From assembly GCF_008802405.1 (NCBI RefSeq), contig NZ_VZDO01000018.1, forward strand, positions 1-64,000: a stretch of 64,000 nucleotides of DNA, given 5' to 3'. The stretch comes from Plantimonas leprariae (GTDB taxonomy: Bacteria; Pseudomonadota; Alphaproteobacteria; Rhizobiales; Rhizobiaceae). Below, one piece after another: positions 23,251 to 41,223 of the stretch (position 1 is its first letter; each line of letters opens with the position of its first letter). The notes under the pieces are model-generated. The model searched no databases. It was not told the DNA's origin and was given only the letters and a program-made list of their open reading frames with translations. Both the position numbers and the translations under genes were made by a program.

Positions 23251-23997
23251 TCAGAACAAGCCGCGCTCGATCCAGCCGGCCGTCACCGCCCGGTTGCGCA
23301 CCAAGTCTTCCGGGAAGTCGAGCTCGCCCCATTCGAGCCCCTCGATCGAGCGGGTGCCGACGATGCCCTCTTCGCGCGCGATGCGGTCGATGGCCGAGAG
23401 GTACCAGGATTTGAGGCCGGTCTCGGCCTTCATCACCGCCTCGATCGTCTGGACGAAGGCGCGCCCGCCCTCGGTCGTGAAGCGGTGGAAGCCGATCGAC
23501 TCGCCGTTCACCACTTCCGGCTCCAGCGTCTTGCCGACCGCCAGCAGCCGGTCGCCATCCAGCGAGACCTTCATGTCGTCCGGGTCGTAGGAGGGTTTGC
23601 GGTCGATCGTGACGGCGATCGGCGCGGCGGGTTCGCCGCCCAGCACGCGCCGGGCGATCTCCGGCTCGACGATCGTGTCGCCGTTGAGGATCGAGAAGTC
23701 GCCGACCATCTGGCTCCGCGCGATCCAGCAGCTCGCCAGGTTGTCGGCGAGCGCGAAGAACGGGTTGTGGACGAGCCGCATCCCGGCCCGCGCCGGCATC
23801 GCGGCGACCGCCGCCTCGACCTTCTCCGCGCCGTAGCCCGTCACCACGACGATCTCGGAGACGCCGGCAGCATCGAGCGCCGCGACCTGCCATTCGAGCA
23901 CGGTCCGGCCGTTGATCTCGACGAGGCATTTCGGCCGGTCGGCGACGAGCCCTTGCAGGCGGCTGCCGCGCCCGGCGCTGAGGATGATGGTCTTCAT
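23251..23997 (-). CDS. Nucleotidyltransferase (phosphocholine cytidylyltransferase/LicC-like)
   Basis: A 248-residue single-domain NTP-transferase. It starts MKTIILSAGRGSRLQGLVADRPKCLVEINGRTVLEWQ, the classic nucleotide-binding signature with catalytic Arg and Lys. Later NGDTIVEPEIA holds the metal-binding Asp, and SWYLSAIDRIA and WGELDFPEDL resemble LicC-type enzymes that make CDP-choline-like activated alcohols. It marks the left end of the sphingolipid region, where it could supply an activated head group; that role is inferred. No good ribosome-binding site is seen before the ATG. Confidence 0.75.
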   Translation of the reverse strand: MKTIILSAGRGSRLQGLVADRPKCLVEINGRTVLEWQVAALDAAGVSEIVVVTGYGAEKVEAAVAAMPARAGMRLVHNPFFALADNLASCWIARSQMVGDFSILNGDTIVEPEIARRVLGGEPAAPIAVTIDRKPSYDPDDMKVSLDGDRLLAVGKTLEPEVVNGESIGFHRFTTEGGRAFVQTIEAVMKAETGLKSWYLSAIDRIAREEGIVGTRSIEGLEWGELDFPEDLVRNRAVTAGWIERGLF

Positions 23998-24154
23998 GGG
24001 CGGTGACGCACGCGCTTCCCGAAAGCGGCCTCGCTTACAGGAGGGGCGGGAGAGGCGCAATCGAGGCATGAGACCCGGTGGAACCTGTGCCGGACGTCGA
24101 CGCACCTCGCGAAAAATCTGGAACGACCGTGCTTGGGCGCGCTATATCCGGCGA

Positions 24155-24355
24155 ATGAGCAAGGTTCGGGCGAAAGACGGCGACAGGATCGTTCGCGATT
24201 CGAAATCGGGGCGTTTCGTCACCGTGCGCGGCGTGGGTGCCCTCAAAGGGCGTCTGGCGATTCGAAAGGATGTCGATCTCACGGAGCCGATCGCCTCGCA
24301 GGCAGCGGATCAATCCGGGAAACCAGCGAGCGGGGCCGCGCGAGCCAAGTCCTGA
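24155..24355 (+). CDS. Type II antitoxin (partner of PIN-domain toxin)
   Basis: A 66-residue protein reading MSKVRAKDGDRIVRDSKSGRF, then GALKGRLAIRKDVDLTEPI, a pattern repeatedly found in small antitoxins paired with PIN toxins. It ends in a hydrophilic tail. It lies 3 bp before the PIN gene, which is the usual antitoxin-first order. A poor ribosome-binding site precedes ATG 24155. The pair is probably autoregulated through the antitoxin. Confidence 0.72.
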   Translation: MSKVRAKDGDRIVRDSKSGRFVTVRGVGALKGRLAIRKDVDLTEPIASQAADQSGKPASGAARAKS

Positions 24356-24358
24356 TCC

Positions 24359-24796
24359 TTGGTCGGCCTGCTGCTTGATACGCACGCGCTCTACTGGCTC
24401 GTCAGCGGAGAGGAGGAACTCTCCGAAGAGGCTCTCGTCGCCATCGGCGAACGCCAGGAAATTCGCGCTCTGTTCGTTTCGCCGATCAGCGCATGGGAAA
24501 TTTCCATCGCCGTCGGCAAGAATCGCGTCGCCGATCGTCCGCGGCTCTGCGACGATCCACCGGATCGCTGGTTTCGAAAGGCAATGCGCGTCGCGGCGGC
24601 GCGGATCGCACCCATCGGACAGGCCGTCGCGGTCGAAGCCGCCGAAGTCGCTGCCTATACCGGTCACCGGGATCCCGGCGACTGCTTCCTGATCGCGACG
24701 GGGCGCGTCAAGCGGCTGTCCATCGTCACGCGCGACCGGACGATCCAGTCGATCTCGGCCGGCGAGCCCGGCTATCTGGATGTGGTCGCATGCTGA
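24359..24796 (+). CDS. PIN-domain toxin, VapC-like
   Basis: A 145-residue PIN-fold ribonuclease. LLLDTHALYWL supplies the first acidic residue, SPISAWEISIAV the conserved Glu region, and GHRDPGDCFLIATGR the C-terminal Asp pair, so all main acidic active-site positions are present. VapC-type toxins cleave RNA (often initiator tRNA or rRNA) when the antitoxin is lost. Start TTG 24359 immediately follows the antitoxin stop. The pair interrupts the space between two lipid-cluster genes and may be a recent insertion. Confidence 0.85.
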   Translation: MVGLLLDTHALYWLVSGEEELSEEALVAIGERQEIRALFVSPISAWEISIAVGKNRVADRPRLCDDPPDRWFRKAMRVAAARIAPIGQAVAVEAAEVAAYTGHRDPGDCFLIATGRVKRLSIVTRDRTIQSISAGEPGYLDVVAC

Positions 24797-24900
24797 GCGG
24801 CGGCGGCGCCTCGCCGATCGAAGCCGCGCTCGCTCCGGCGGTTCCCATCTGGGGGCGCTTCGGATAGGAACGCGCTCTTTCGTCCCGAACGAGCGGGTGC

Positions 24901-26031
24901 ATGAAGGTCGTCTTCCCCTATCTGGCGCAGATCCACCAGATTCCGCACACCCTGCCGATCGCGATGGAGATGGCGCGGGGCGGCGGGGTCGAGGTCCATC
25001 TCGCCGCCTCGACCGAAGGGCACCTCGCCTATATGCGCCAGCTCGCGGCGGCCGCCTATCCGGGCGTGCCGGTGACGTTCAAGCGCCTCTACCTGCCCTG
25101 GGCGGTGCATGCCGTCGCCGATGCCGGCGGCTGGACGATCCGGCCGAAGAAGCTGACGCTGCTCCTGAACCTTTCCTACCTCCGCTCCTTCAACGCGATC
25201 GTCGTGCCGGAGCGCACCTCGCTGTTCCTCCGCCGCTTCGACATGGGCAGGACCAGGCTCGTCTGGACCGGCCACGGCGGCGGCGACCGCGCCAGCGGCT
25301 ATACCGACAATGTCGGACAGTTCGACTTCGTGCTCCTGCCGGGCGAAAAGCTCGCGACCCGGCACAAGGCGGCCGGCAATATCCGCGACGGGCACTACGG
25401 CATCGGCGGCTACGCCAAGTTCGACCTCGTCGGCAGGCTCGCCGCCGGTCGTAAGCCCTTGTTCGACAACGGCCGGCCGACCGTCGTCTACAACCCGCAT
25501 TTCTGGCCCTCGCTGTCGTCCTGGCACCTCGTCGGTTTCGAGGTGCTCGACTTCTTCGCGAACCAGTCCGACTACAACCTCGTTTTCGCGCCGCACATGC
25601 GCGTCTTCGACCCGCCGACGGCGAAGAAGTACGAGCCGTTCCGCCGCTACATGGACCTTCCCCACATGCGGATCGACCTCGGGAGCGCGGCGTCCACCGA
25701 TATGACCTATACCGGCGGCGCCGACATCTATCTCGGCGACGTGTCGAGCCAGATCGCCGAGTTCACCCTCCGCCCGCGGCCGCTGGTCTTCCTCGACCCG
25801 CGCCGGACGGCGTGGCGGGACGACCCGAACTACCGCTCCTGGCAGCTCGGCATCGTGGCGGAAACCGTGGCGGAGCTGCCGGAAGCGCTGAAGCGAGCGC
25901 GGGAAACGCACCGCGAGTTCCGGCAGCTCCAGGCCGACTATTTCGCCGAGACCTTCGACGTCGATCCGACCGTTCCCTCCGCGCCGCGCGGGGCGAAGGC
26001 GATCCTCGACTACCTCCGTACGCAAGCCTGA
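24901..26031 (+). CDS. CDP-glycerol:glycerophosphate glycerophosphotransferase-like protein
   Basis: A 376-residue soluble glycosyltransferase-B-like enzyme. VWTGHGGGDRASGYTDN, YNPHFWPSLSSWH and TGGADIYLGDVSSQIAEF correspond to the nucleotide-binding and active-site regions of TagB/TagF-type glycerophosphotransferases, with the second-domain His and Asp/Ser present. It could add glycerophosphate or a similar group to a lipid or polymer. Its stop TGA overlaps the next ATG (TGATG), so it is coupled to the flippase-ligase gene in the sphingolipid cluster. Confidence 0.75.
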   Translation: MKVVFPYLAQIHQIPHTLPIAMEMARGGGVEVHLAASTEGHLAYMRQLAAAAYPGVPVTFKRLYLPWAVHAVADAGGWTIRPKKLTLLLNLSYLRSFNAIVVPERTSLFLRRFDMGRTRLVWTGHGGGDRASGYTDNVGQFDFVLLPGEKLATRHKAAGNIRDGHYGIGGYAKFDLVGRLAAGRKPLFDNGRPTVVYNPHFWPSLSSWHLVGFEVLDFFANQSDYNLVFAPHMRVFDPPTAKKYEPFRRYMDLPHMRIDLGSAASTDMTYTGGADIYLGDVSSQIAEFTLRPRPLVFLDPRRTAWRDDPNYRSWQLGIVAETVAELPEALKRARETHREFRQLQADYFAETFDVDPTVPSAPRGAKAILDYLRTQA

Positions 26032-29000: not shown

Positions 29001-29204
29001 GAATGCCGGCCGAGCGACGGCGACGCGCGGGCGCGCCTCGCGGACAACGTCGAGAAGCTGCTGCGCTCGCGGCACGGCATCGATGTCGAAGTGGCGCTGG
29101 CGAGGCCGAACTCGCTGCCGCTGACCTCCTCCGGCAAGCTCAGCCGGGTGCGGGCGCGCGAGCTCTACCACCGGCTGCGGAGCGAAGGCGCCGCGCTTGC
29201 CTGA
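26031..29204 (+). CDS. Fused lipopolysaccharide-type flippase and acyl-AMP/acyl-ACP ligase
   Basis: One uninterrupted 1057-residue frame. Residues 1-455 form a 12-14 helix MATE/Wzx-like flippase (AILGNTAMLVGGRGVTGVLSLVYVALAARSLGVEGFG). A Pro/Glu-rich linker (about 455-500) follows. Residues 500-1057 form an acyl-adenylating enzyme of the FAAL type, with FSSGSTRFPMGV (about 662; the usual Lys is Met), YGMAET (about 818), WLDTGDLGYL (about 922), GRAKDLIIVNGRNIWPQDLE (about 940) and the catalytic Lys in SSGKLSR (about 1034). In Caulobacter, similar functions are needed for ceramide synthesis as separate proteins. ATG 27474 could start the ligase independently. The first codons encode MFHVKH because a parS site overlaps the start. 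Confidence 0.78.
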   Translation: MFHVKHRRPRPEGAAREPFRAILGNTAMLVGGRGVTGVLSLVYVALAARSLGVEGFGLLTLVHTYAQTIGDFVEFNSWQATLHYGVKPLRDGRIGDLHRVIRFSLLLDALGAVGGALAAVLLAYFFAAALGLPEDLVGAAMLYATSILFMSTTTPLGILRLLDRFDLVAVQTTISSVTRFAGSLLVFAAGGGLAEWLLVWYLSTLAAFLFMVGASATVMRRHGSTAGGGAFFAWRDLRPFTKDMPGAWAFVWNINVSSALGLVTGKAALLAVGFFLGAREAAFFRIAKQLADAATRPAKLLVPSLYPELARLWLERDMKRLVRLCVQIALTAGLVATTVLVVLAVFGDPLIRLFVGPDFLGANAIILWLFGASVVTIWALPLEPLLVSTGRSGSALRVRAAVAVAYLAVLFPLMDRLGLAGAGIAALGAAVLQLVLQLVAAARAKPGAATAAPEPEDLALPFEPTLGNGPAILTSGEPPDRMNQEEQSQRGAVPDGRPERVLTEALEAAAAIPGAGFDFYSNKGALAESLPYPKLRDEAKALARRLLALGLNHGDRVAILAETEGDFPRAFFACRYAGLVPAPMPLPAAFGGRASYIEHLRRMIGVAEARAAIGPAALRDWLLEGADGLGLRFAGPLADLPDAGDHDLPPPAGPGDLCYLQFSSGSTRFPMGVAVTERALAANAEAISRHGLRAGEGDRCVSWLPFYHDMGLVGFHLVPLFAGLSVDYLATRDFARRPLLWLDLISRNRGTISYAPSFGYDLCVRRLGSGGAPPEGLDLSSWRAAGIGGDMIRPEILARFADAFAAAGFRDTSFVASYGMAETVLAVSFAPLDRGIRAERLDLRHLETQGEARPAEGAAEARAFVRCGPALPGHALEVRGEKGGPLGEGRVGRIFARGPSTMEGYYRNEGATAEVLSPDGWLDTGDLGYLHGGEIVITGRAKDLIIVNGRNIWPQDLELTAESEVEGLRSGDVAAFSVDSDGEERVVVLVECRPSDGDARARLADNVEKLLRSRHGIDVEVALARPNSLPLTSSGKLSRVRARELYHRLRSEGAALA
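26032..26047. other. parS: parS centromere site (ParB binding)
   Basis: TGTTTCACGTGAAACA is a perfect 16-bp palindrome identical to the bacterial parS consensus bound by ParB. It overlaps the start codon of the flippase-ligase gene, whose first six residues are therefore MFHVKH. parS sites are normally clustered close to the replication origin, so this window probably lies in the origin-proximal region. Confidence 0.93.
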
Positions 29205-30147
29205 CGGCGGGGGCGGCGGGCGGCCACTCGTCGCGCTGACCGGCGCGACCGGCTTCCTCGGCATCCACCTGACCGCGGCGCTCGACGCGGCCGGCTTCCG
29301 GGTGCGGGCGCTGGCGCGGAACGGCCGGCCGGTCGCGGGGGCGGCGGAAACGGTCGCCGGCGATCTCGCCGACGCGGTCGCGCTCCGCCGGCTCGTCGCC
29401 GGGGCAAACGCCGTGGTCCACGCGGCCGGGCTGACGAAAGCCCGAAGCGCCGCCGAGTTCGACGCGGTGAATGCCGGCGGCACCGCGCGCCTCCTGGACG
29501 GTCTCGGCGGCGCCGCGCCGGATGCGCACGTGGTGCTGATCTCCAGCCTCGCCGCCCGCGAGCCGCAGCTCTCGCCCTATGCCGCCTCGAAGCGCGCCGG
29601 CGAGCGGGAGGCCGGAGCCCGCGTGCCGGAGGATCGTCTCGCGGTCGTCCGGCCGCCGGCGCTCTATGGCCCGCACGACCGGGCGACGCTCGCCGTCTTC
29701 CGGGCGGCGCGCTCCGGCCTCTGTCCGCTGCCCGGCGGCGACCGGGGCGAGCGGATCGCGCTTCTCGACGGGCGGGACGCGGCGGACGCGGTGGCGCGTC
29801 TCCTCAAGGAGCGTCGGCGTGGCACCTTTGCACTAGCCGACAGCCGGCCCGGCGGCTACGGGATGCACGAGATCTTCGAGGCGGCCGCGCGCGCACAAGG
29901 GCGAACGGCCCGCTTCGTGGCGATCCCGGCGCCGGCCTTCCGCCTCCTCGGCCGGGGCGGGGCGGTTCTCGGCCGGCTCGCCGGGCGCGCGCCGCTCCTG
30001 TCGCCCGGCAAGGTGCGCGAGATGCTGCATCCCGACTGGTCGGTCGACCCCGCCGACATGCCGCCGGGCCTCGCCGGCAGCGCTCGCAGTATAGGCCGCG
30101 GCTTCGCCGAAACAGTCGCATGGTACAGGCAAGCCGGCTGGCTTTAG
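29197..30147 (+). CDS. cerR: NAD(P)-dependent epimerase-like ceramide reductase
   Basis: A 316-residue extended SDR protein. The nucleotide fold is PLVALTGATGFLGIHLTAALDAAGF, and the catalytic Tyr and Lys are in SPYAASKRAGE (about residues 128-132). In Caulobacter an epimerase-like protein at this position of the spt cluster reduces the keto group of oxidised ceramide. The same gene order here (ligase, reductase, ACP, spt) supports that role. TTG 29197 has GAAGG upstream and overlaps the preceding stop by 8 bp; the frame has no better start. Confidence 0.78.
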   Translation: MPDGGGGGRPLVALTGATGFLGIHLTAALDAAGFRVRALARNGRPVAGAAETVAGDLADAVALRRLVAGANAVVHAAGLTKARSAAEFDAVNAGGTARLLDGLGGAAPDAHVVLISSLAAREPQLSPYAASKRAGEREAGARVPEDRLAVVRPPALYGPHDRATLAVFRAARSGLCPLPGGDRGERIALLDGRDAADAVARLLKERRRGTFALADSRPGGYGMHEIFEAAARAQGRTARFVAIPAPAFRLLGRGGAVLGRLAGRAPLLSPGKVREMLHPDWSVDPADMPPGLAGSARSIGRGFAETVAWYRQAGWL

Positions 30148-30258: not shown

Positions 30259-30516
30259 TTGGATCAAAGCTTTTCCGCCGCGTCGCCGAGCGTCATCGGG
30301 GAGATCACCAGCGTCCTGCAGTCCATGCTCGGCCGCCCGGTCTTCCTGCAGCCCGATACCAACATCGTCGCCGACCTCGGCCTCGACTCGCTGGCGATCA
30401 TGGATTTCTGCATGGAGCTGGAGGACCGGCTCGACATCTCCATTCCCCTGCATCAGCTGGCCGACGTGGTGAGCGTCGGCGATCTCGCCGGCGCCATCGC
30501 CCAGTTGCGTAACTGA
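30259..30516 (+). CDS. Acyl carrier protein
   Basis: An 85-residue ACP. The phosphopantetheine attachment Ser is in DLGLDSLAIMDF (about residue 44), followed by helix ELEDRLDISIPL. It is presumed to receive the fatty acyl chain activated by the neighbouring ligase and hand it to serine palmitoyltransferase, as the dedicated ACP does in Caulobacter. The start is TTG 30259, with GGAGG five bases upstream; TTG 30247 would add four residues but lacks such a site. It is followed by spt after 10 bp. Confidence 0.85.
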   Translation: MDQSFSAASPSVIGEITSVLQSMLGRPVFLQPDTNIVADLGLDSLAIMDFCMELEDRLDISIPLHQLADVVSVGDLAGAIAQLRN

Positions 30517-30526
30517 GTTCCGTTCC

Positions 30527-31783
30527 ATGTCGATTCTCGAGAAGTTCAAGCCGCTTCGCGCTGCCCATGACCGGCTGAAGGCGCTGGGCCGCGACCCGTT
30601 CTCCGTCACCTTCGACGACATCGTCTCGCCCACCGAAGGCATCCTCGACGGCCGGCGCACCGTGCTTCTCGGGACCAACAACTATCTCGGCCTGACCTTC
30701 GACGACACCTGCATCGAGGGCTCGATCGACGCGATCGTGCGGCACGGCACCGGCACCACCGGCTCGCGCATCGCCAACGGCTCCTACGACGAGCACGAGA
30801 ACCTCGAGAAGGAGCTGGCCGCCTTCTTCGGCCGCCGGCACGGCATGGTGTTCTCCACCGGCTACCAGGCCAATCTCGGCATCCTGTCGACGCTGGTCGG
30901 CAAGGACGACCACCTGATCATCGACGCCGACAGCCACGCCTCGATCTACGACGGCTCGCGGCTCGGCCACGCGCCCGTGATCCGCTTCCGCCACAACGAT
31001 CCGGAGGATCTGGCGAAGCGCCTGCGCCGCCTCGGCGACGCGCCGGGCGCGCGGCTGATCGTCACGGAAGGCATCTACTCGATGCTCGGCGACATGGCCC
31101 CGCTTCGCGAGATCGCGGCGGTGAAGCGCGAATACGGCGCCTATCTCCTCGTCGACGAGGCCCATTCGATGGGCGTCCTCGGCGCCAGAGGCCGGGGTCT
31201 GGCCGAAGAGGTCGCGGCGGAAGCCGACGTCGACATCATCATCGGCACCTTCTCGAAATCGCTCGGCAGTGTCGGCGGCTTCTGCGTCTCCGATCTCGAG
31301 GACTTCGACATCGTGCGCCTCGCCTGCCGGCCTTACATGTTCACGGCCTCGCTGCCGCCGGCGGTGATCGCCTCGACCCGATTCGCCCTGAAGAAGCTGC
31401 AGCAGGAGCCGGGCCTGCGCGCCCAGCTCACCAGCAACGCCCGCCAGCTCTACACGGCCTTGCAGGCGCAGGGGTTCCAGGTCGGCCCGCAATGCTCGCC
31501 GATCGTCTCGGTGATCCTGCCGGACCCGCAAAAGGCGATGGTGCTCTGGAACGCGCTCCTGGAGAACGGGCTCTACATGAACCTCGCGCTGCCGCCGGCG
31601 ACGCCGAGTTCCTCGGCCTTCCTGCGCTCCAGCGTCTCGGCCCGCCACACGCCGGAGCAGATCGCCTTCGCGGCGAACTTGATGGGCCGGATGGCGCGCG
31701 AGCTCGGCATCCTCGAGGCCGCCGAGCCGGAGCCGATCTTCAATCGGAAGCGCGCCGCCGGCGGCGCCAGAGCCGCCGGATAA
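30527..31783 (+). CDS. spt: Serine palmitoyltransferase
   Basis: A 418-residue alpha-oxoamine synthase. It carries TNNYLGLTFD, HGTGTTGSRIANGSYDEHENLE and the PLP-binding DEAHSMGVLG, with the Schiff-base Lys in GTFSKSLGSVGGF (about 244). The TFSKSLGSVGG form, an N-terminal extension, and the adjacent ACP, acyl ligase and ceramide reductase point to condensation of serine with an acyl thioester rather than KBL, BioF or HemA activity. It is the committed step of sphingolipid synthesis. The last 44 bp overlap the convergent TAM41-like gene. Confidence 0.9.
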   Translation: MSILEKFKPLRAAHDRLKALGRDPFSVTFDDIVSPTEGILDGRRTVLLGTNNYLGLTFDDTCIEGSIDAIVRHGTGTTGSRIANGSYDEHENLEKELAAFFGRRHGMVFSTGYQANLGILSTLVGKDDHLIIDADSHASIYDGSRLGHAPVIRFRHNDPEDLAKRLRRLGDAPGARLIVTEGIYSMLGDMAPLREIAAVKREYGAYLLVDEAHSMGVLGARGRGLAEEVAAEADVDIIIGTFSKSLGSVGGFCVSDLEDFDIVRLACRPYMFTASLPPAVIASTRFALKKLQQEPGLRAQLTSNARQLYTALQAQGFQVGPQCSPIVSVILPDPQKAMVLWNALLENGLYMNLALPPATPSSSAFLRSSVSARHTPEQIAFAANLMGRMARELGILEAAEPEPIFNRKRAAGGARAAG

Positions 31784-32684
31784 GCGGCACGGCGACGAGG
31801 AGCGGCCAGCGCCGCTCCCGGTCCGTGACCACGAGCGCCTCGCCGCTGTGGCGCTCGACCTTCCAGGCGATGTAGTCGGCTCCGCCCTTGAAGGTGAAGG
31901 CCGCTTTCGCGAGGCGCGCGACGTTCAGCGGTTTCGCCAGCCGCGCCCGCCGTTGCCAGTCCCGCTCCGCGCGGCTCTTTTCGTCGATGGTTTCGGCAAG
32001 GCGCGGCCGGACGTTTCCGTCCGCCAACTCCTCCAGTGTGATGCCCTTCGCTGCCGCCGCGGCGCGGAACGCCCGCTCATAGCGCGGCTCCGCCTGATCG
32101 ACGATCCCGTCGGCGCGGCTCGTCTTCTCCACCCGAAGCTCGGAGGCGTAGGTGCGGCGGAACAGGCCGCGCCAGTAGTCGGCGGGGCGCGCCTCGGCGG
32201 GACCGAGACGGACCGCCCAGATCACCGCCGTCGCGACCGCTTCCGCCACAGCCGCCGCGACCGTCGTTGCCGCCGCTTCGTCGCGCGCCCATGCCAGCGC
32301 CGCGACCTGCGAGAAACGCGCCCAGACCGTGGTGTCGAGGCTGTCCGTCCGTACCAGCCGCCGGAACTGCCGAAGCGACAGGATCGCGACCTTGCCTCTG
32401 ATCGTGCGGCCGTCCAGCGCGACTTCATGGTATTCGACGTTCGGCGGCAGCATCGCGTTGGCGCGGGCTGCGAGGGACCCGTGGCTCCAGTCGGCGAGCC
32501 GGTCGACGATCACGTAGAAGTCGAGGATGCCGTCGAGGTCGCCGGCCCGGAGCCCCGAGCCGTAGAACAGGACGGCGACGGGGGGCCGGCGCGCGCCTGC
32601 CGCGAGGTGGGCGGCGAAGGCGCGGGCTTCCGGGCGGACGGGTGCGCCGAGTTCGGCGGCGACGAGCCGTTCGAGTTCCGTCAT
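31740..32684 (-). CDS. TAM41-like cytidylyltransferase domain protein (probable sphingolipid head-group gene)
   Basis: A 314-residue protein. LFYGSGLRAGDLDGILDFYVIVDRLADW (about 39-66) matches the GSG...LDF nucleotidyltransferase signature of TAM41, the mitochondrial-type phosphatidate cytidylyltransferase, and GRTIRGKVAILSLRQF resembles its next block. In Caulobacter a gene at this position is one of three needed to make ceramide phosphoglycerate. A CDP-ceramide-type intermediate is therefore conceivable here (inference). Its ATG overlaps the lipid kinase stop; its 3' end overlaps spt by 44 bp. Confidence 0.65.
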   Translation of the reverse strand: MTELERLVAAELGAPVRPEARAFAAHLAAGARRPPVAVLFYGSGLRAGDLDGILDFYVIVDRLADWSHGSLAARANAMLPPNVEYHEVALDGRTIRGKVAILSLRQFRRLVRTDSLDTTVWARFSQVAALAWARDEAAATTVAAAVAEAVATAVIWAVRLGPAEARPADYWRGLFRRTYASELRVEKTSRADGIVDQAEPRYERAFRAAAAAKGITLEELADGNVRPRLAETIDEKSRAERDWQRRARLAKPLNVARLAKAAFTFKGGADYIAWKVERHSGEALVVTDRERRWPLLVAVPLIRRLWRRRRRASD

Positions 32685-33631
32685 GGCGAGACGAACTCCA
32701 CCGCCGGGCCGGCCGCGATCGAGACCAACCCGCCCTCGCCGGGGTCGTAGGCCTCGCCGTCGAGCACGAAGCGCTCGCGGAGCTGAAGGACGATGCGCGC
32801 CGCGGAGCCGCTGCGGTAGCCGGCCTCGCGCATCCACGGCGCCGGGCGGCCGCGAAGGGCGGGCAGGAGCGCGGCGGCGAGGCGCTGCGGCGGCGCGTCG
32901 ACGGCGAGGAAGCGCAACGGGTGCCTGGTCTCGCCGTCCCAGAACGGCCAGACGCCCAGCGTGAAGCGCCGGAGCGTCGTCGCGAGGAAGATCAGCCGCG
33001 GGCGCGAGGGTTCCGCCGATGCCCCGCCGTCGAGGGCGAGGCGCATCGGCGCGCCGGCGAGCCAGCGCGCGCGCTCCTCGCCCTTCGCCAGCGCCATGAT
33101 CCCGCGCCCGATCCCGGCCGCGACGCGCGCCGGTCCGAAGGAGATGCGGTCGGCGAGACCGTGGTCGGCGAGCGCGATGGCCCGCGCATAGGCGCCGGCG
33201 CCGAGCACGAAGCCGGTCAGCCGCCGGTCTCCAGACACGACTTCCAGCGTCGATACCGGGCGCCGCGGCAGCGTAGGAGGGAGGCCGGCGGCGGTCGCGC
33301 CGGCGAGCCGTTCGAGGCCGCTCTGGCCGGTGCCCCAGTTGCCGCTCGTGCCGGCGAGGATGTTGGTCTTGCCGGAGGCGAGGAAGGCCATCGGCGGCAG
33401 GGTGGCGAAGGAGCCTCGCGCGGCGGACAGGACGTCCCGCACCGTGCCGTCGCCGCCGTCGACCGCGAGGAGGCCGACGCCGCGCGCCGCGAACTCGGCG
33501 AGGACGGCGTCGAGCTCGGCATGCGAGCGCGGCTCGCGCAGGAGCGTATCGCTCCCGAGGCGGCCGGCATCGATCGCCGGCCGGTCGCGGTTGCGTCGGC
33601 TGCGCGGGTTGCGGACGATGCCGAGCAGCAC
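32681..33631 (-). CDS. Diacylglycerol/ceramide kinase family lipid kinase
   Basis: A 316-residue DAGK-catalytic fold protein. GIVRNPRS at the start is followed by the ATP site LLAVDGGDGTVRDVL (about residues 55-68) and FLASGKTNILA. A second lobe ends the protein. The bacterial ceramide kinase of Caulobacter lies in the equivalent cluster and is of this family; here it would phosphorylate ceramide. The GTG at 33631 is used as start because the next gene's stop is at 33640; the ribosome-binding site is weak, so the start is uncertain. Confidence 0.72.
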   Translation of the reverse strand: MLLGIVRNPRSRRNRDRPAIDAGRLGSDTLLREPRSHAELDAVLAEFAARGVGLLAVDGGDGTVRDVLSAARGSFATLPPMAFLASGKTNILAGTSGNWGTGQSGLERLAGATAAGLPPTLPRRPVSTLEVVSGDRRLTGFVLGAGAYARAIALADHGLADRISFGPARVAAGIGRGIMALAKGEERARWLAGAPMRLALDGGASAEPSRPRLIFLATTLRRFTLGVWPFWDGETRHPLRFLAVDAPPQRLAAALLPALRGRPAPWMREAGYRSGSAARIVLQLRERFVLDGEAYDPGEGGLVSIAAGPAVEFVSP

Positions 33632-33639
33632 CGGAACGC

Positions 33640-34773
33640 TCAGGCCTGCAGCCAGGAGCGGATCGGCCCCTGCCGCGTGGCGCTCGCAGCCTGGACGATC
33701 TGGGCGAGGTGGACGAGGAAGCAGAGCGCCGTCCAAGCCGCGACGAGGAGCATGCCCCAGTCGGGGCGACCGACGAGCGTCAGGACGGTGAGGATCAGGA
33801 GATTCGGGTTGCGCCGCGCCGTGATGCCGCGGAACCAGGAATCGAACGGCCGCCAGATGTGCATCTCGATGCCGAAGGCCTTGATGAACACGCCCTCCTC
33901 GATCCGCTGCGCGACGTAGCCGCCGACCACCACCGCGGTGACGAGGCCGGGATGGGCGAGGGGCAGGCCGACGGCGGGCAGGCCGACGATCCAGGCCCAC
34001 CACCAGAAGGGCGGGTGAACGAGGTCGATGCCGTGGTCGAGCGCGTCGCCGGCCTTCGAGAAGGTCATGGTGACGCGCGCCAGCTTGCCGTCGACCGTGT
34101 CGAGGAAGGTCATCATCCAGGCGGACAGGAGACCGAGCCCAAAATAGCCGTGCCAGAACAGCCAGAAGGAGAGGATGACGAGCGCGAGGCTGAGGAGCGT
34201 CACCTGGTTCGGCGTGATGCCGGCGCTGGCGCACCAGCCGGTGACGAGCTTCGCGGGTGGCGGCCAGACGTGCTTGGTGATGAAGTCGGTGACGCCCTTG
34301 TAGGACGCGCCGAAGGTGCGGTCGCGGATCGCCGCCAGGTTCTCGCGGGTGAGGGGGAGGAGGAACGGCTCCTCGCGCTTCCGGAGCTTGTTGTTGTAGG
34401 AGCCGGCGAGCTCCACCGGCGTCTTCACGGCGCAGCCGGGCGGGACGACGAGGCGGCCCTCGCCCGCGAGCGCGGCCGCCGCGTCCGCCGTGTGGACGGC
34501 GACGATCTCGCCGCCGCTGGTGGCGAGCGCGGTCTCCGGCGACTTCGCCAGCGCCTCGACCAGCCGCTGGTCGAAGACGTGGTCGGCGCGGATCAGGATC
34601 GCCGGGCGGCCCGCGGGCGGCGCGTCGCCCGCGCCGAAGGCGACGTCGCGGAGCCCCAGCCGCGCGAAGGAGCGCCGCAGCCGCTCGGCGGCGGTCATCC
34701 CCCAGATCGGCACCGGCCCGTCGCCGATCACGATGACGGCCGGAGCGATGGTCGGGGCAGGGGCGTTCGGCAA
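33640..34773 (-). CDS. CDP-alcohol phosphatidyltransferase with N-terminal nucleotidyltransferase-like region
   Basis: A 377-residue membrane enzyme. The family signature DTVDGKLARVTMTFSKAGDALDHGID (about residues 221-246) is intact, with all four metal-binding Asp residues. Several hydrophobic helices follow. The first ~150 residues form a soluble region (VIVIGDGPVPIWGMTAAERLR), resembling the N-terminal part of inositol-phosphate bifunctional enzymes. It probably transfers a phospho-alcohol from a CDP-activated lipid or head group in the sphingolipid pathway. The annotated start is TTG 34773 with a weak ribosome-binding site; an internal start is possible. Confidence 0.78.
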   Translation of the reverse strand: MPNAPAPTIAPAVIVIGDGPVPIWGMTAAERLRRSFARLGLRDVAFGAGDAPPAGRPAILIRADHVFDQRLVEALAKSPETALATSGGEIVAVHTADAAAALAGEGRLVVPPGCAVKTPVELAGSYNNKLRKREEPFLLPLTRENLAAIRDRTFGASYKGVTDFITKHVWPPPAKLVTGWCASAGITPNQVTLLSLALVILSFWLFWHGYFGLGLLSAWMMTFLDTVDGKLARVTMTFSKAGDALDHGIDLVHPPFWWWAWIVGLPAVGLPLAHPGLVTAVVVGGYVAQRIEEGVFIKAFGIEMHIWRPFDSWFRGITARRNPNLLILTVLTLVGRPDWGMLLVAAWTALCFLVHLAQIVQAASATRQGPIRSWLQA

Positions 34774-34883
34774 GCGGCGCGGCTTTCGCTGTTGATCTAG
34801 GCGCGGTTATCGGGCGCTGTGTAGAGGCTGTCATGGACCGGACACAAGCCGTCCGCCCCGCTGGCGTCCGCGAGCCAACTCCT

Positions 34884-34919
34884 CTACAGGTCGGCGGTTC
34901 GAGTCCAGCCGGGTCCGCG
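34884..34919 (+). other. tRNA T-arm-like sequence (remnant?)
   Basis: AGGTCGGCGGTTCGAGTCC followed by AGCCGGGTCC looks like a variable loop, T-arm and 3' acceptor strand. GGACCGG at 34835-34841 can pair with six of seven acceptor positions. However, the T-stem has two mismatches, no D-arm or anticodon loop is recognisable, and no CCA follows, so I do not call a functional tRNA. Confidence 0.25.
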
Positions 34920-34921
34920 AG

Positions 34922-35359
34922 ATGGCCAATCCGACGATGGCGAAGTTCGGCTATCCCGCCAGCCTCGTCGCCGAAACCGCGCACTGGAGCGTGCTCCTGC
35001 GCCCGCAGGCGCCGACCCTCGGCTCGCTGGTGCTCGTCTGCCGCGAGGCGGCGCGGAGCTTCGCCGACCTGTCGCCGGACGCTTTCGCCGACCTGAAGCT
35101 CGCGGTCACCGGGATCGAGCGGGTCCTGCGGGAGTTCGTCGCCTTCGAGCGCATCAACTATCTGATGCTGATGATGGTGGACCCGGACGTGCATTTCCAC
35201 GTGATCCCGCGCTATGCGGGCGAGCGCCGGCACGGGGAAACGCGCTTCCCCGACGCCGGCTGGCCGGGGCCGCCGGCGCTCGGGGAAGCCGTGGCGCTCG
35301 GCGAGGCGGACGTCGGCGCGATCCGCGATCGCCTCGCGGCGCTCTGGAACGCGGCCTGA
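34922..35359 (+). CDS. HIT family hydrolase/transferase
   Basis: A 145-residue protein whose VHFHVIPR segment near residue 90 is the HxHxH core of histidine-triad nucleotide-binding proteins, with the usual preceding hydrophobic strand. HIT proteins hydrolyse or transfer nucleotide-linked phosphates. Located between the head-group module and the LptFG pair, it may process a nucleotide by-product of sphingolipid head-group synthesis; this is a guess. It is divergent from the CDP-alcohol enzyme. The start at 34922 has no strong ribosome-binding site (ATG 34937 is an alternative). Confidence 0.75.
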   Translation: MANPTMAKFGYPASLVAETAHWSVLLRPQAPTLGSLVLVCREAARSFADLSPDAFADLKLAVTGIERVLREFVAFERINYLMLMMVDPDVHFHVIPRYAGERRHGETRFPDAGWPGPPALGEAVALGEADVGAIRDRLAALWNAA

Positions 35360-35378
35360 GCCGGGGATCAAACCGTTC

Positions 35379-36602
35379 ATGTCCGGCAGGCGCAGCTTCG
35401 GCGTTCCGACGATCCTCGACCGTTACCTGCTCGGGCTCGTCCTGAAGCCGCTCGGGCTCGGCGTCGGCGTGCTCCTCGTCGGCCTCCTCCTCGCGCGGGT
35501 CCTGCGCCTCCTCAACGTCCTCGCCTCCTCCGGCTCGACCGAGCTCGGCATCCTCGCCGCGCTGACGGCCAGCCTCGTGCCGCACTATCTGGGCCTCGCG
35601 CTCACCGCCGCCTTCGTGATCGCGGTGTTCGTCGCGATGATCCGGCTCGGCGACGGCTCCGAGCTCGACGCGCTGCTGTCCAGCGGCCTGTCGCTCGGCC
35701 GCATCGCCGTGCCCTTCGTCGCGCTGGGCGCGGTGCTCGCCGTGTTCTCCTTCGTGCTCTACGGCTGGCTGAACCCGCTGTCGCGCTACGACTACCGCAG
35801 CGTCCTCTATTCGGCGACGGCGGTGGTCGCCTACCGCACCGACATCCGGCCCGGCAGCTTCGTGAATGCCGGCCGCGGCGCGACGATCACCGCCGACGAC
35901 GTCGACGCCGGCTCGAAGCGCGTCCGCGGCGTGTTCATCCACCAGATCGACGAAGGCGGCCGCGAACGGATCACCACCGCGACGAGCGGCGAGATCGCGC
36001 CGGGACCCGACGGCGTCCACCTGAAGCTGATCCTCGAGGACGGCGTCTCGATCATCCAGGACCCGAACGGGCCGCCGCTGCGCACGCAGTTCCGGCACCT
36101 GAACTTCCAGACCGAGATCGAATATGCCGGGCGGCCCTACCGCCCGCGCGGCAGCAACGAGCGCGAGATGACGCTCGGCGAGCTGTGGGAGGAACTGAGA
36201 GCCCCCACGACCGATCTCGGGCCCCGCATCGTCGAAGCCGAGCTGATCGACCGGATCATCCGGCCACTGGCGCTGGTGTTCATGCCGCTTCTCGCCATCC
36301 CGCTCAGCCTCGCCACCAAGCGCGGCTCGCGGGCGGCCGGGCTGGTCGCCGGCGCGATCGTGCTCCTGACGTTCAACAGCGCGCTGCAGTTCGGCAAGGA
36401 TCTAGCCGCGGCCGGCCACGGGCCGGTGCCGGTGACGGCGCTCGCGCCCTTCGCCGCCTTCGTCGCGCTGTCGCTGTGGCTGTTCCTGGCGAGCGCCCGG
36501 CATCCGACCGAGGCGCCGCTGTCGCGGCTGATCGGGCGGCTGTCGGACTTCGGCGGCGGCGTTTTCCGGCTCGTGCGGCCGCGCCGGCAGCGCGCCGAAT
36601 GA
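35379..36602 (+). CDS. lptF: LptF-like lipid export permease
   Basis: A 407-residue YjgP/YjgQ family protein. It has three N-terminal helices, a large periplasmic beta-jellyroll-like segment (about residues 110-270, including RPGSFVNAGRGATITADDV), and three C-terminal helices (PLALVFMPLLAIPLSLATKRGSRAAG). LptF and LptG form the membrane part of the ABC exporter that extracts lipopolysaccharide. Here the pair is embedded in the sphingolipid cluster rather than next to other lpt genes, so it may export a sphingolipid. It overlaps lptG by 4 bp (ATGA). Confidence 0.85.
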   Translation: MSGRRSFGVPTILDRYLLGLVLKPLGLGVGVLLVGLLLARVLRLLNVLASSGSTELGILAALTASLVPHYLGLALTAAFVIAVFVAMIRLGDGSELDALLSSGLSLGRIAVPFVALGAVLAVFSFVLYGWLNPLSRYDYRSVLYSATAVVAYRTDIRPGSFVNAGRGATITADDVDAGSKRVRGVFIHQIDEGGRERITTATSGEIAPGPDGVHLKLILEDGVSIIQDPNGPPLRTQFRHLNFQTEIEYAGRPYRPRGSNEREMTLGELWEELRAPTTDLGPRIVEAELIDRIIRPLALVFMPLLAIPLSLATKRGSRAAGLVAGAIVLLTFNSALQFGKDLAAAGHGPVPVTALAPFAAFVALSLWLFLASARHPTEAPLSRLIGRLSDFGGGVFRLVRPRRQRAE

Positions 36603-37681
36603 TCACGCTCGCCTCCTACCTGTCGAGCCGGCTGCTTCTCACCGCGCTCGGCACCGTCGCGGTGCTCGGCGCGCTGGTCCAGATCCTCGACCTCCTCGAC
36701 ACGACCGAGGACATCCTGGCGATGGGCGAGGGCGCCTCCGGCTTCCTGTTCTACGTCGCGATGCGCACGCCCTCGATCCTGCCGGAAGTGCTGCCGCTCG
36801 GCGTCCTCCTCGCGACGCTGTTCGTTCTCGCCCCGCTCGTCCGCCACGGCGAGATCGTCGCGATGCGCGCCGCCGGCATGCATGTCGGCCGGATCTTCCT
36901 CGCCATGCTGCCGGCGCTGGTGGTGATCGCGCTCGGCCACTACGCCATCGCCGACGGCATGCGCCCGCCCGCCGAGCGGCGGCTGGCGGAATGGTGGGCG
37001 GAGAACGGCGTCAAGACCAACAAGCCGGTCTGGCTGAAGATCGACGGCCGCATCGTCGAGGCCGGCCGGGTGCTCGACGGCGGCCGGCGGCTGGAGAACG
37101 TCCGGATCTTCGACCGCGACCTCCTCGACGCCGTCTCGACCCGCACCGTCGCCGGCGCGGCGCGCTATGCCGAGGGGCGCTGGACGCTGGACGACGCGAC
37201 GGTGACGGACCTGCGCCGCCAGGAGATCGGCACGGGCCGGCCGGCGGACGGCGTCTGGAACACCCGCCTCCGGCCGCGCGACGTGATCGAGGCCATGGCG
37301 CCGGACGCCAACGTCTCGGTCGGGGCGGCCTACGACGTCCTCGTCGGCCGGCGGCTGGCGGTCGCCGCGCCGTCCGTCTACGCCACCGCCCTGCAGCGGG
37401 CCTTCGCCGAGCCGGCGAGCGACTTCGTGATGCTGCTCCTCGCGCTGCCCCTCGCCTTCGCCTCCTGGCGCGACGGACGGAGCGGGCGCGTCTTCATCCT
37501 GTCGCTCGGCGCCGGTCTCGTGTTCCTCCTGACCGACGGCGTCGTCGCGACCCTCGGCCGCGCCGGCGTCATCCAGCCGGCGCTCGCCGCCTGGAGCCCG
37601 AGCGTCGGTTTCGCCATCCTCGCCTTTCTGCTGCTCCGCCGGCTGGAAGGCGTCAGGCACCCACGCGGAGGCACCGCTTGA
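36599..37681 (+). CDS. lptG: LptG-like lipid export permease
   Basis: A 360-residue partner of the preceding LptF-like protein. It begins MITLASYLSSRLLLTALGTVAVLGALVQILDLLD, typical of LptG, with a periplasmic domain (about residues 110-260) and C-terminal helices ending AFLLLRRLEG. The DTTEDILAMGEG segment is a family hallmark. No LptA, LptB or LptC gene is in the cluster, so the ABC ATPase must come from elsewhere. The stop overlaps the next TTG start by 4 bp. Confidence 0.85.
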   Translation: MITLASYLSSRLLLTALGTVAVLGALVQILDLLDTTEDILAMGEGASGFLFYVAMRTPSILPEVLPLGVLLATLFVLAPLVRHGEIVAMRAAGMHVGRIFLAMLPALVVIALGHYAIADGMRPPAERRLAEWWAENGVKTNKPVWLKIDGRIVEAGRVLDGGRRLENVRIFDRDLLDAVSTRTVAGAARYAEGRWTLDDATVTDLRRQEIGTGRPADGVWNTRLRPRDVIEAMAPDANVSVGAAYDVLVGRRLAVAAPSVYATALQRAFAEPASDFVMLLLALPLAFASWRDGRSGRVFILSLGAGLVFLLTDGVVATLGRAGVIQPALAAWSPSVGFAILAFLLLRRLEGVRHPRGGTA

Positions 37682-38793
37682 TCGACGTGACCCTAGTTGC
37701 CGGCAAGGGCGACCTCGAACGCTTCATCCGGCTCGGGCCCGAACTGCAACGCGGCGATCCCGCCTATGTCGCCCCGCTCCTGATGGAGCGCCGGCAGGCG
37801 CTGTCGCCGAAGCACAACCCGCTTTTCGCCCAGGCCGAGATCGCCTTCTTCCTGGCGCGGCGGGACGGGCGCGTCGTCGGGCGGATCAGCGCCCAGGCCG
37901 ACCGCCGTACCGGCGAGACCGGCCATTTTGGGCTTCTCGCGGCCGAAGACGACCGGGAAGTCTTCGCCGCGCTCTTCCGGGCGGCGGAAAACTGGCTGCG
38001 GGAGCGCGGCCGCACCCGCATCCTCGGGCCGTTCGACCTGTCCATCAACGAGGAGATCGGCGTCCTCGTCGACGGCTTCGAAACGCCGCCGATGCTGCTC
38101 ATGCCGCACAACCCGCCATCCCTGCCGGCGCGGATCGAGGCCGAGGGCTACACGAAGGCCAAGGACGTCTTCGCCTATCTCTTCGACAATTCCACCCGGC
38201 CCGCCTGGGCGCGGCGGGTCGAGAAGCGGCCGCTGCCGCCGGGCGTGACGCTCCGCCCGCTCGACTGGAAGCGCTACGAGGCCGACCTCGCCGCCGTGGT
38301 CGACATCTTCAACGACGCCTGGTCCGGCAACTGGAACTTCCTGCCGCTGGAAGGCGCCGACCTCGACGCGATGGCGAAATCGATGAAGCCGCTGATCGTG
38401 CCGGACTTCGTCCAAATCGCCGAGGTGAACGGCGAGCCCGCCGCCTTCGGCATCTGCCTGCCGAACCTCAACGAGGCGATCCGGGACCTCAGCGGCAGCC
38501 TCGTCCCCCTTGGCTGGGCGAAGCTGCTGTGGCGGCTGAAGGTAAAGGGCGTTTCCACCGCGCGCATCCCGCTGATGGGCGTCCGCCGCTCGGTGGCCAA
38601 GGGCGCGACCGGCGCGTTCCTGCCGATGATCATCATGAGCCGCCTCGGCAACGAGGCCGCGAAGAAGGGCATCCGGCACATCGAGATGTCGTGGATCCTC
38701 GAGGACAACGCGCCGATGCGCCATTTCGGCCAGACCATGGCCGGCGATCCCTACAAGACCTACCGGATCTACGAGAAGGCGCTTCGCGCGTGA
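37678..38793 (+). CDS. GNAT-like acyltransferase resembling bacterial ceramide synthase
   Basis: A 371-residue protein starting (TTG) IDVTLVAGKGDLERFIRLGPELQRGDPAYVAPLLMERRQAL, a tandem GNAT-type pattern. GRISAQADRR, ILGPFDLSINEEIGVLVDGFETPPMLLMPHN and the C-terminal RHIEMSWILEDNAPMR (about 340-355) are the most conserved-looking parts. In Caulobacter a GNAT-superfamily protein in this neighbourhood acylates the sphingoid base, and this gene's place directly behind lptFG matches it. TTG 37678 has GGAGG six bases upstream. It overlaps genes on both sides, indicating tight coupling. Confidence 0.72.
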   Translation: MIDVTLVAGKGDLERFIRLGPELQRGDPAYVAPLLMERRQALSPKHNPLFAQAEIAFFLARRDGRVVGRISAQADRRTGETGHFGLLAAEDDREVFAALFRAAENWLRERGRTRILGPFDLSINEEIGVLVDGFETPPMLLMPHNPPSLPARIEAEGYTKAKDVFAYLFDNSTRPAWARRVEKRPLPPGVTLRPLDWKRYEADLAAVVDIFNDAWSGNWNFLPLEGADLDAMAKSMKPLIVPDFVQIAEVNGEPAAFGICLPNLNEAIRDLSGSLVPLGWAKLLWRLKVKGVSTARIPLMGVRRSVAKGATGAFLPMIIMSRLGNEAAKKGIRHIEMSWILEDNAPMRHFGQTMAGDPYKTYRIYEKALRA

Positions 38794-39578
38794 CGGGCGG
38801 CGGCGGTGGCCCGGTCGCCGCGCTGATCCTGGCGGGTGAGCGGCCGGGCGGCGACCCGCTGGCGCGCGAAACCGGCTCGCCGCACAAGGCGACGATCGAG
38901 ATATGCGGGCGGACGATGCTCGACCGCGTCGCGCAAACGCTGCTCGACTGCCCGCGGGTCGGGCGGATCGCGGTCTCGGCCGCCGAGCCGCTGCCGCTCC
39001 TCGATCCTGGCCGGATGGAGATGCTCGCGCCCGGGCCGACCCCGAGCCTCAGCGTCAAAGCGGCGATCGCGGCGCTCGGCACGCCGCTTCTCGTCACCAC
39101 CGCCGACCACCCGCTGCTGCGCGCCGAGTGGGTCGACCATTTCCTCGACCACCTGCCGGCCGGCGCCGACGCCGCCGCGGCGCTCGCCCGCGCCGAAACG
39201 GTGATGGCGGCCGAGCCCACCACCGAGCGCACCTTCCTCCGCTTCCGGGACGGCCGCTGGTCCGGCTGCAACCTGTTCTTCTTCGCGACGCCCGAAGCCG
39301 TCGGCGTCGTGGATTTCTGGCGTCGGATCGAGGCGTATCGCAAGCGGCCTCTCGTCATGGCGCGGATGATCGGCCTCGGCACGCTCCTCGCCTATCTCGG
39401 CCATCGCCTGACGCTGGACGGCGTCCTCGACCGCATCGGCGCTCGCGCCGGTGCCCGGCTTCGTGCGGTCGAGATGCCGTTCGGCGAAGCGGCGATCGAC
39501 GTCGACGACATGGACGACCTCGCCCTAGTGCGACGAATCATCGCGCGACGCGAAGACGCCAGTGAGCGCATGGCTTAA
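38790..39578 (+). CDS. MobA-like NTP transferase domain protein
   Basis: A 262-residue single-domain nucleotidyltransferase. The GAALILAGERPGGDPLARETGSPHKATIEICGRTMLDRV opening is a MobA/IspD-type signature, TTADHPLLRAEW gives the metal-binding Asp, and the C-terminus ends IDVDDMDDLALVRRII. It lies at the right end of the sphingolipid cluster. A role in activating a head group is inferred. GTG 38790 overlaps the preceding stop by 4 bp and has GAGAAGG upstream. Confidence 0.75.
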   Translation: MTGGGGGPVAALILAGERPGGDPLARETGSPHKATIEICGRTMLDRVAQTLLDCPRVGRIAVSAAEPLPLLDPGRMEMLAPGPTPSLSVKAAIAALGTPLLVTTADHPLLRAEWVDHFLDHLPAGADAAAALARAETVMAAEPTTERTFLRFRDGRWSGCNLFFFATPEAVGVVDFWRRIEAYRKRPLVMARMIGLGTLLAYLGHRLTLDGVLDRIGARAGARLRAVEMPFGEAAIDVDDMDDLALVRRIIARREDASERMA

Positions 39579-39629
39579 CCGGCTCGCAAGAATGCTGCGG
39601 CAAGATGCGCGGGATCAACGGACGCCGCC

Positions 39630-41189: not shown

Positions 41190-41223
41190 ACCGGAGCTTC
41201 GGCCGGCGCCGCGGCCGATGCCG

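Follow-up and report, generated by a model that had tools for sequence, protein, structure and literature searches.

The window, by which we mean the whole stretch of 64,000 nucleotides from Plantimonas leprariae contig NZ_VZDO01000018.1 that was analysed, carries at 23251-39578 a block of 15 genes (Table 1). Of these, 14 agree in family and place with the ceramide (di)phosphoglycerate (CPG/CPG2) cluster described in Caulobacter (PMC11324152), the HIT gene being counted among them by place only. The genes listed in the original prediction were found at or near the places it gave by means of Pfam, NCBIfam and reading of the sequence, from which the start codons were also taken, and the overlapping starts and stops are indeed present (for example ATGA at 36599-36602).

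Table 1. Genes of the putative sphingolipid block and its neighbour in the window
Feature	Position	Strand	Basis and remarks
DesA-type fatty acid desaturase/hydroxylase	22170..23246	+	PF00487, 87 bits; neighbour of the block; candidate ceramide acyl hydroxylase
CpgD-like CTP:phosphoglycerate cytidylyltransferase	23251..23997	-	PF12804, cytidylyltransferase relatives, glycerate-contact residues
Small ORF, possible antitoxin	24155..24355	+	Position before the PIN gene only
PIN-domain (VapC-like) protein	24359..24796	+	PF01850
TagF-like glycerophosphotransferase-family protein (Tag)	24901..26031	+	Weak PF04464, below cut-off; GT-B model
Flippase (CC_1166-type) + acyl-AMP ligase (AasR), one open frame, 1057 aa	26031..29204	+	PF01943, PF00501, NF006624
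CerR-like reductase	29197..30147	+	PF01370
AcpR acyl carrier protein	30259..30516	+	PF00550; TTG start and DSL motif read from sequence
Spt serine palmitoyltransferase	30527..31783	+	NF047599; solved SPTs
CpgC Tam41-like nucleotidyltransferase	31740..32684	-	Predicted structure matches Tam41
CpgB ceramide kinase	32681..33631	-	PF00781, 27.8 bits (cut-off 23.6); GGDGT motif
CpgA CDP-alcohol phosphotransferase	33640..34773	-	PF01066; intact DxxDGxxAR...GxxxDxxxD
HIT-domain protein (position of CC_1157)	34922..35359	+	PF01230
LptF2	35379..36602	+	PF03739
LptG2	36599..37681	+	PF03739
CerS-like GNAT ceramide synthase	37678..38793	+	PF00583, 21.1 bits (cut-off 20.7); conserved order
CofC/MobA-like nucleotidyltransferase (CC_1153 type)	38790..39578	+	PF12804

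Ceramide and head-group genes

The five ceramide genes aasR, acpR, spt, cerR and cerS stand together in the block, CerR and CerS being named by family and order and not by a specific model. Spt scored 667.9 bits against the NCBIfam serine palmitoyltransferase model NF047599 (cut-off 500) and stayed below the cut-offs of the alphaproteobacterial SPT model NF047603 (486.5 bits; cut-off 670) and of the BioF model (334.6 bits; cut-off 426). Solved serine palmitoyltransferases were also the closest in the PDB comparison (E 3e-132, versus 1.6e-65 for KBL). The best matches are SPTs and not the biotin or aminolevulinate synthases named in the original prediction as the outcome that would speak against it, though the cut-off of NF047603 was missed; on the NCBIfam scores and PDB matches, we rejected a biotin, aminolevulinate or KBL enzyme. 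CerR exceeded the cut-off of no NCBIfam model, so that its name rests on the PF01370 family and the conserved order. Its NAD-binding motif lies close to the N-terminus and no signal peptide is visible by eye. This is at odds with the CerR of Caulobacter, which was reported to be periplasmic (PMC11087976), and counts against the explanation that we favour.

CpgA, CpgB, CpgC and CpgD are all in the block with intact motifs, CpgC being recognised by predicted structure only. CpgC had no Pfam match; its model (pLDDT 92) has the Tam41 (CDP-DAG synthase) fold, all five PDB matches at E<=0.001 being Tam41 (query TM 0.50-0.54, E 3e-8 to 7e-7). The contact residues of the Caulobacter CpgD were taken from PMC13228409 and PMC12275187 and placed on the window protein by their spacing rather than by alignment with the Caulobacter sequence. 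All five glycerate contacts are kept in the window, while none of five nucleotidyltransferases used as controls has more than two. Counterparts of the CTP/glycerate residues Gly12, Arg16, Lys26, Asn90, Asn110, Gly111, Asp112, Met147, Lys161, Ser170 and Trp201 are identical, Thr93 is replaced by Ser and Thr88 (a backbone contact) by Ala, and the glycerate contacts are conserved across the cluster CpgD rows of the alignment. Therefore, the donor made by this CpgD is most likely CDP-glycerate too, as in Caulobacter, where CpgD is the CDP-glycerate synthase (PMC12275187).

The HIT protein keeps VHFHV in all 20 aligned rows, and its gene accompanies cpgA in counts over the 84 loci that we compared, which were chosen by CpgC and include the window. 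After kinship correction there were 5 independent pairs, on average 3.7 pointing the same way against 0.8 the opposite way, and the sign test was not significant. The Caulobacter gene at this position, CC_1157, was called 'probably unrelated' in print. The CofC-like gene was present in 68 of the 84 loci.

Transport genes

There are two LptFG pairs in the genome, LptF2-LptG2 in the block and a separate pair on contig C33. A single LptC gene (PF06835) was found in the whole genome; it does not lie in the block, and no second LptC was found. A CC_1158-type phosphoesterase was also absent from the window when sought there at E 1e-8. The cluster, called complete in the original prediction, thus contains nearly all of the genes and falls short by these two. 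The ligase predicted as a fusion does lie in a fused frame, its part starting at about 27474 and scoring 777 bits against NF006624 (cut-off 600), but its partner is the flippase (PF01943), and the two are separate frames in the related locus of Aureimonas psammosilenae. This separation would fit a sequencing or assembly error in the window, as would the dip of third-position G+C at the junction (0.83-0.86 versus 0.91-0.98 elsewhere), which is what a former intergenic stretch should show. However, the frame stays open across about 55 linker codons, and other merged genes occur in clusters of this type (LptF2 with LptG2 in A. psammosilenae and, as it appears, the flippase with Tag in L066), so an artefact instead of a true fusion seems doubtful to us, if worth bearing in mind.

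Comparison with related loci

By published description, the gene set and order are largely those of Caulobacter crescentus CC_1168-CC_1152 (aasR-cerR-acpR-spt, cpgC-cpgB-cpgA, lptF2-lptG2, cerS, CC_1153, cpgD), and the order also matches that of a Caulobacteraceae MAG locus, L106; the predicted conservation of the order is borne out by both. In contrast to C. crescentus, cpgD occupies the opposite end, the flippase and AasR share one frame, a linked LptC2 and the CC_1158-type phosphoesterase are missing, and a TagF-like gene beside the flippase (to which CC_1167 might correspond) and a DesA-like gene are linked.

CpgC was found in only 3 of 394 sampled genomes of the host's family. The host and A. 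psammosilenae belong to the same GTDB genus and both carry the block: the A. psammosilenae locus (L037, NZ_WEZG01000004.1) has the same 15 genes in the same order with 58-91% identity (best segment per gene). Since these genes keep their order there and many of them occur together in other loci, the block is not a chance assembly. The DesA-like gene adjoins cpgD in both (71%) and is absent from the other 82 loci. The A. psammosilenae locus differs in having LptF2 and LptG2 in one frame, and it has no exact parS site.

The Acetobacteraceae loci (Acetobacter, Gluconacetobacter, Asaia, Commensalibacter) have AasR, AcpR, Spt, CpgC, CpgB, LptF2, LptG2 and the CofC-like gene in 41 of 41 cases and the TagF-like gene in 28, whereas CpgA, CpgD, HIT, CerR and CerS were undetected at all 41; a calcineurin-like phosphoesterase is present in one of them (L061), as is a PF04116 hydroxylase. 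CpgB, CpgC and the CofC-like gene persist here without CpgA and CpgD, thus the CofC-like enzyme, judged by this distribution, probably acts beyond the CPG-to-CPG2 step alone. Among 14 chosen genomes, 8 had CpgA together with strong cluster-type CpgD matches, and the remaining 6, which are all Acetobacteraceae, had neither. CpgD was within reach in 14 of 24 loci with CpgA and in none of the 60 without it; after kinship correction 2.2 of 5 independent pairs pointed the same way and none against, which is not significant. That the two genes come and go together in the 14 genomes is in line with CDP-glycerate feeding CpgA.

A recent transfer from Acetobacteraceae was rejected, as the concatenated tree puts the window outside this family and groups it with A. 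psammosilenae and G485 as well as with two genomes from a different family of the same order. Two further genomes of the order (L144 and L146) are far off in the tree, so transfer and loss are indistinguishable. We looked for the right flank (39600-47500) in 6 genomes of the genus, the host's own included; its matches are scattered over contigs, thus no clean empty site was seen and insertion was not demonstrated.

Discussion

The gene families, their order, the conserved catalytic and pocket residues and the second LptFG pair are directly observed, and we consider it very probable from them that the block is of the Caulobacter type and directs the synthesis of an anionic phosphosphingolipid. 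At the level of genes, the predicted anionic phosphoglycerate-type lipid therefore holds. The published Caulobacter work provides the order and the lipids of mutants, that is, the requirement for the genes (PMC11324152). By analogy, AasR would load a fatty acid onto AcpR, Spt would condense the fatty acid with serine, and acylation by CerS and reduction by CerR would give ceramide, the acyl chain of which may be hydroxylated by the DesA-like neighbour, as the published text on CC_0202 suggests (PMC11324152). CpgB, which was reported to be a ceramide kinase in Caulobacter (PMC10331486), would form ceramide 1-phosphate. CpgC, with its Tam41 fold, would most likely activate it with CTP toward ceramide phosphoglycerate; CDP-ceramide, the transport steps and every lipid product of this strain are what we infer from the genes. 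CpgD would make CDP-glycerate, the phosphoglycerate of which CpgA would transfer to give the diphosphoglycerate lipid, and the CofC-like enzyme, perhaps with the HIT and TagF-like proteins, would belong to the head-group branch. CPG forms in Caulobacter without CpgA (PMC11324152), thus the transferase joining glycerate to the activated ceramide is still missing from this scheme. The original prediction counted three further genes for the Caulobacter head group; six from ceramide to CPG2 have been published. The flippase and LptF2-LptG2, with the shared LptC and other Lpt parts, would bring the lipid to the outer membrane, so that the cluster probably also exports its product. One might argue that LPS or some other polysaccharide lipid is what these transporters carry and that their linkage to the sphingolipid genes is incidental, as the flippase family comprises polysaccharide flippases and no transport experiment was found in the cited papers. 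However, a separate LptFG pair exists on C33, and LptF2 was present at all 84 loci and LptG2 at 83 of them (loci chosen by CpgC, the window row being set by definition), which makes such a role very improbable.

The prediction of a different head group finds no indication in CpgD with its conserved glycerate contacts, and it is the linked TagF-like gene that may leave room for it. On an otherwise Caulobacter-like pathway this protein could add further phosphoglycerate or phosphoglycerol units. Tag is present at 33 of the 84 loci, the cluster supplies CDP-glycerate, three of four class genomes with the Tag family also have CpgC, and the predicted structure (pLDDT 88) has the GT-B fold of the wall teichoic acid polymerase TagF, which is among its matches. 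However, UDP-GlcNAc 2-epimerases rank above TagF in this search, and the sequence similarity is marginal: PF04464 gave 10.6 bits (cut-off 22.1), and of 16 relatives 6 match it at E<=1, the best one with 3.6e-5. When the Tag alignment was searched against PDB sequences, just three weak, unrelated-looking matches came up. Moreover, 20 of 23 class genomes with CpgC lack Tag, a paralogue lies elsewhere in the same genome outside any sphingolipid context, and six Acetobacteraceae genomes keep Tag without cluster-type CpgD, so that Tag may use a donor other than CDP-glycerate. We thus regard an extended or different head group as unlikely. Also unlikely is the broader idea for Aureimonas-type clusters that the TagF-like enzyme makes the ceramide head group longer, drawing on CDP-activated phosphoglycerate or phosphoglycerol and giving a teichoic-acid-like anionic sphingolipid, or joins the first glycerate, while the HIT protein works in the CpgA/CpgD branch. 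Beyond PMC11324152, we found no literature on CC_1167 or on a glycerophosphotransferase in bacterial sphingolipid work. Conversely, the strain might make only ceramide or CPG, with the later head-group steps inactive or used otherwise. The missing CC_1158-type phosphoesterase and the Acetobacteraceae clusters with CpgB, CpgC and CofC but without CpgA and CpgD would agree with this, yet the CpgA motif and the CpgD pocket are intact and CC_1158 is dispensable for CPG2 in Caulobacter (PMC11324152), hence we find it quite improbable.

The Caulobacter-type cluster is of a kind already published, is rare in the sampled genomes of the family and contains one or two linked genes that are candidate parts of the pathway. 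By our data, an almost full set of phosphosphingolipid genes occurs in Aurantimonadaceae, for the sphingolipids of which nothing was found by title or abstract in the open-access papers searched, and the comparison turns two steps of the pathway into testable predictions. As for the PIN gene and the small ORF before it (24155-24796), the frame 24101-24352 containing the latter had no Pfam match, the pair has no counterpart in the A. psammosilenae locus, and the PIN-domain gene is probably a later insertion.

Gene content and gene order

All genes listed in the original prediction were confirmed by the open reading frames of the window, Pfam and NCBIfam, gene starts and overlaps being taken by reading the sequence. 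Spt passed NF047599 of NCBIfam (667.9 bits, cut-off 500), scored below the cut-off of the alphaproteobacterial SPT model (486.5 bits, cut-off 670) and matched solved serine palmitoyltransferases at E 3e-132, the best non-SPT match being KBL at 1.6e-65. The acyl-AMP ligase part passed NF006624 (777 bits, cut-off 600), and the reductase and the GNAT protein matched general families only. CpgC had no Pfam match, and its structure model (built on a 20-row alignment, pLDDT 92) matched exclusively Tam41 CDP-DAG synthase at E<=0.001 (5 of 5 matches). The alignment of CpgA shows an intact CDP-alcohol phosphotransferase motif.

The prediction that the order is largely conserved relative to Caulobacter holds when compared by description, since the window has the same series as the order in the available part of PMC11324152: LptC2, CC_1167, flippase, aasR, cerR, acpR, spt, cpgC, cpgB and cpgA, followed by CC_1158, CC_1157, lptF2, lptG2, cerS, CC_1153 and cpgD. 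The cluster had also been called complete; it is nearly so, LptC2 and CC_1158 of that published order being absent from its series. Further differences from this order are that cpgD lies at the opposite end, that the TagF-like gene adjoins the flippase, and that HIT occupies the place of CC_1157, a match by position only. The locus of a Caulobacteraceae MAG (L106) is ordered much as in Caulobacter, a phosphoesterase standing where CC_1158 would be and LptC adjoining the flippase; CpgB and the TagF-like gene were both undetected at this locus. A phosphoesterase of the calcineurin-like type seen in a Gluconacetobacter cluster was found in 70 of 86 sequences checked (E 1e-8; two of the 16 negatives are partial pieces) and is reported as missing from the six organisms that PMC11324152 compares. 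The locus of a Rhodospirillaceae MAG has a second, distant DesA-type gene (33%) between CpgC and Spt.

The same locus is carried by Aureimonas psammosilenae (NZ_WEZG01000004.1, contig C33 of genome G701), whose genome is listed as of the same genus; therefore, the window is from the GTDB genus of A. psammosilenae. The genes from DesA through CofC-like are all present there in unchanged order, the small ORF and PIN-domain gene excepted.

Coordinates of individual features in and around the compared clusters
Feature	Sequence	Position	Remarks
Small ORF and PIN-domain gene	window	24155-24796	between cpgD and TagF-like gene; no counterpart in A. psammosilenae
parS-like palindrome TGTTTCACGTGAAACA, exact	window	26032-26047	inside first flippase codons
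GGDEF diguanylate cyclase with dCache-like sensor	window	39630-41189	immediately after cluster
Second TagF-like copy	G000:C3 (locus L162)	107655-108767 (8101-9864)	587-codon frame (L162 coordinates), extra C-terminal part
PF04116 hydroxylase and calcineurin-like phosphoesterase	Gluconacetobacter cluster (L061)	4858-5637 and 7962-8855	

Head-group donor

Of 14 chosen genomes, eight carry CpgA, and these same eight match CpgD strongly (E 2e-57 or better). The six without CpgA, all Acetobacteraceae, have either no CpgD match (three) or only ones with 33-36% identity and E 1e-15 to 1e-7 (three). We also compared 84 loci by tblastn with the window proteins at E 1e-4, a search that remote homologues and genes off the locus escape; loci shorter than 14.5 kb were left out, and the window row was set by definition. 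Spt, CpgB, CpgC and CofC-like are kept in all 41 Acetobacterales loci of this set, and CpgA, CpgD, HIT, CerR and CerS were undetected at all 41 at this threshold. Of the 24 loci with CpgA, 19 have HIT, versus 1 of the 60 that lack CpgA; on the tree this link is not significant (five independent pairs, on average 3.7 agreeing and 0.8 against). The VHFHV stretch of HIT is conserved in 20 of 20 aligned rows.

The product of Caulobacter CpgD is CDP-glycerate (PMC12275187, available part), and in the CpgD structure Asn90, Asn110, Ser170, Met147 and Lys161 contact the glycerate and Trp201 contacts waters on the magnesium (PMC13228409, available part). Residue spacing was used to locate these contacts in the window protein, and they were followed in 15 cluster rows, in which A. 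psammosilenae and locus L139 are one gene. Asn86, Asn105, Met142, Lys156 and Trp198 (window numbering) are identical in all 15 rows, Ser167 is kept in 14, and the Gly9, Arg13 and Lys23 positions are missing from one partial row. One row, by input order the Caulobacteraceae MAG locus, supports the mapping: both 84 and 89 are Thr in it, which is also the case in Caulobacter. As controls we used five related nucleotidyltransferases of the genomes compared (six stretches taken, one without a match); the best matches of the three weak-CpgD Acetobacteraceae genomes served in this way. All five keep Gly9, Arg13 and Asp107; the counts for the other residues are N86 0/5, N105 1/5, M142 0/5, K156 3/5, S167 0/5 and W198 0/5. 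Because the glycerate contacts are kept in the cluster CpgD and mostly not in the controls, the donor is, judged by these residues, most likely CDP-glycerate as in Caulobacter.

The TagF-like gene, whose role in the cluster is putative, occurs at 33 of the 84 loci (28 Acetobacterales, the window, A. psammosilenae, genomes G485 and G175, and Panacagrimonas). Its family is present in 4 of 190 class-sample genomes, three of which also have CpgC (Fisher p about 0.006, by hand, kinship ignored); genome G058 has the two on different contigs. Six of the 16 relatives match PF04464 at E<=1, the lowest value being 3.6e-5, and the window protein lies below the cut-off of this family (10.6 versus 22.1 bits). 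The protein is modeled as a GT-B fold (pLDDT 88), for which UDP-GlcNAc 2-epimerases topped the fold search, with four TagF chains within the best 36 (TM 0.59-0.63). Around the second TagF-like copy all other cluster genes are absent within the 19 kb taken. The TagF-like and HIT genes are openings for new chemistry.

Transport and merged frames

The window's own genome has two LptFG pairs, on its contigs C8 and C33, and one LptC. In Caulobacter CerR is periplasmic, Spt and CerS are cytoplasmic, and as of 2024 the authors had named no flippase (PMC11087976, available part). The window CerR has its NAD-binding motif almost at the N-terminal start, and a signal peptide is absent by eye.

The flippase and AasR form a single frame of 1057 codons in the window, whereas in A. 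psammosilenae they are separate frames with 59 bases between. Residues 446-500 aligned to neither protein and have lower third-position G+C, and they look as if a former intergenic stretch had turned coding; the single frame could encode a genuine fusion protein or stem from an error in the sequence. LptF2 and LptG2 are merged in one frame of 778 aa in A. psammosilenae, and at locus L066 the flippase is apparently merged with the TagF-like protein (845 aa). The window's genome has 12 exact copies of the parS-like palindrome, seven of them on contig C39, and the A. psammosilenae locus has none.

Distribution

With the own genome counted throughout, CpgC relatives were found in 23 of the 190 genomes sampled from the class (two of these matches are weak, at E about 1e-4 and 9e-4), in 31 of 297 from the order, in 3 of 394 from the family and in 2 of 6 from the genus; the block is sporadic among the sampled family genomes. 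The genome-contig search for CpgC matched at least 594 stretches, of which 587 were confirmed and the best 80 retained. The available part of PMC7179689 states that sphingolipids in Alphaproteobacteria appear confined to Sphingomonadales, and no report on those of Aureimonas or Aurantimonadaceae was found in the open-access literature searched. This kind of cluster is already published; here it is nearly complete and in a family where it is rare in the sample.

The tree of six proteins (2247 columns, quick method, SH-aLRT support only) includes 54 rows out of 78 that were eligible; 24 Acetobacteraceae were thinned by hand, and further loci with fewer than five of the six proteins were omitted. 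It groups the window with A. psammosilenae (100), then with genome G485 (99) and then with two genomes of another family of the order (100), with warnings for composition, the window being among those flagged, and for one pair of long branches. Many Acetobacteraceae contigs (L038-L072) stop about 4-7 kb past CpgC on the AasR side, as if a repeat, for example an rRNA operon, bordered the cluster.
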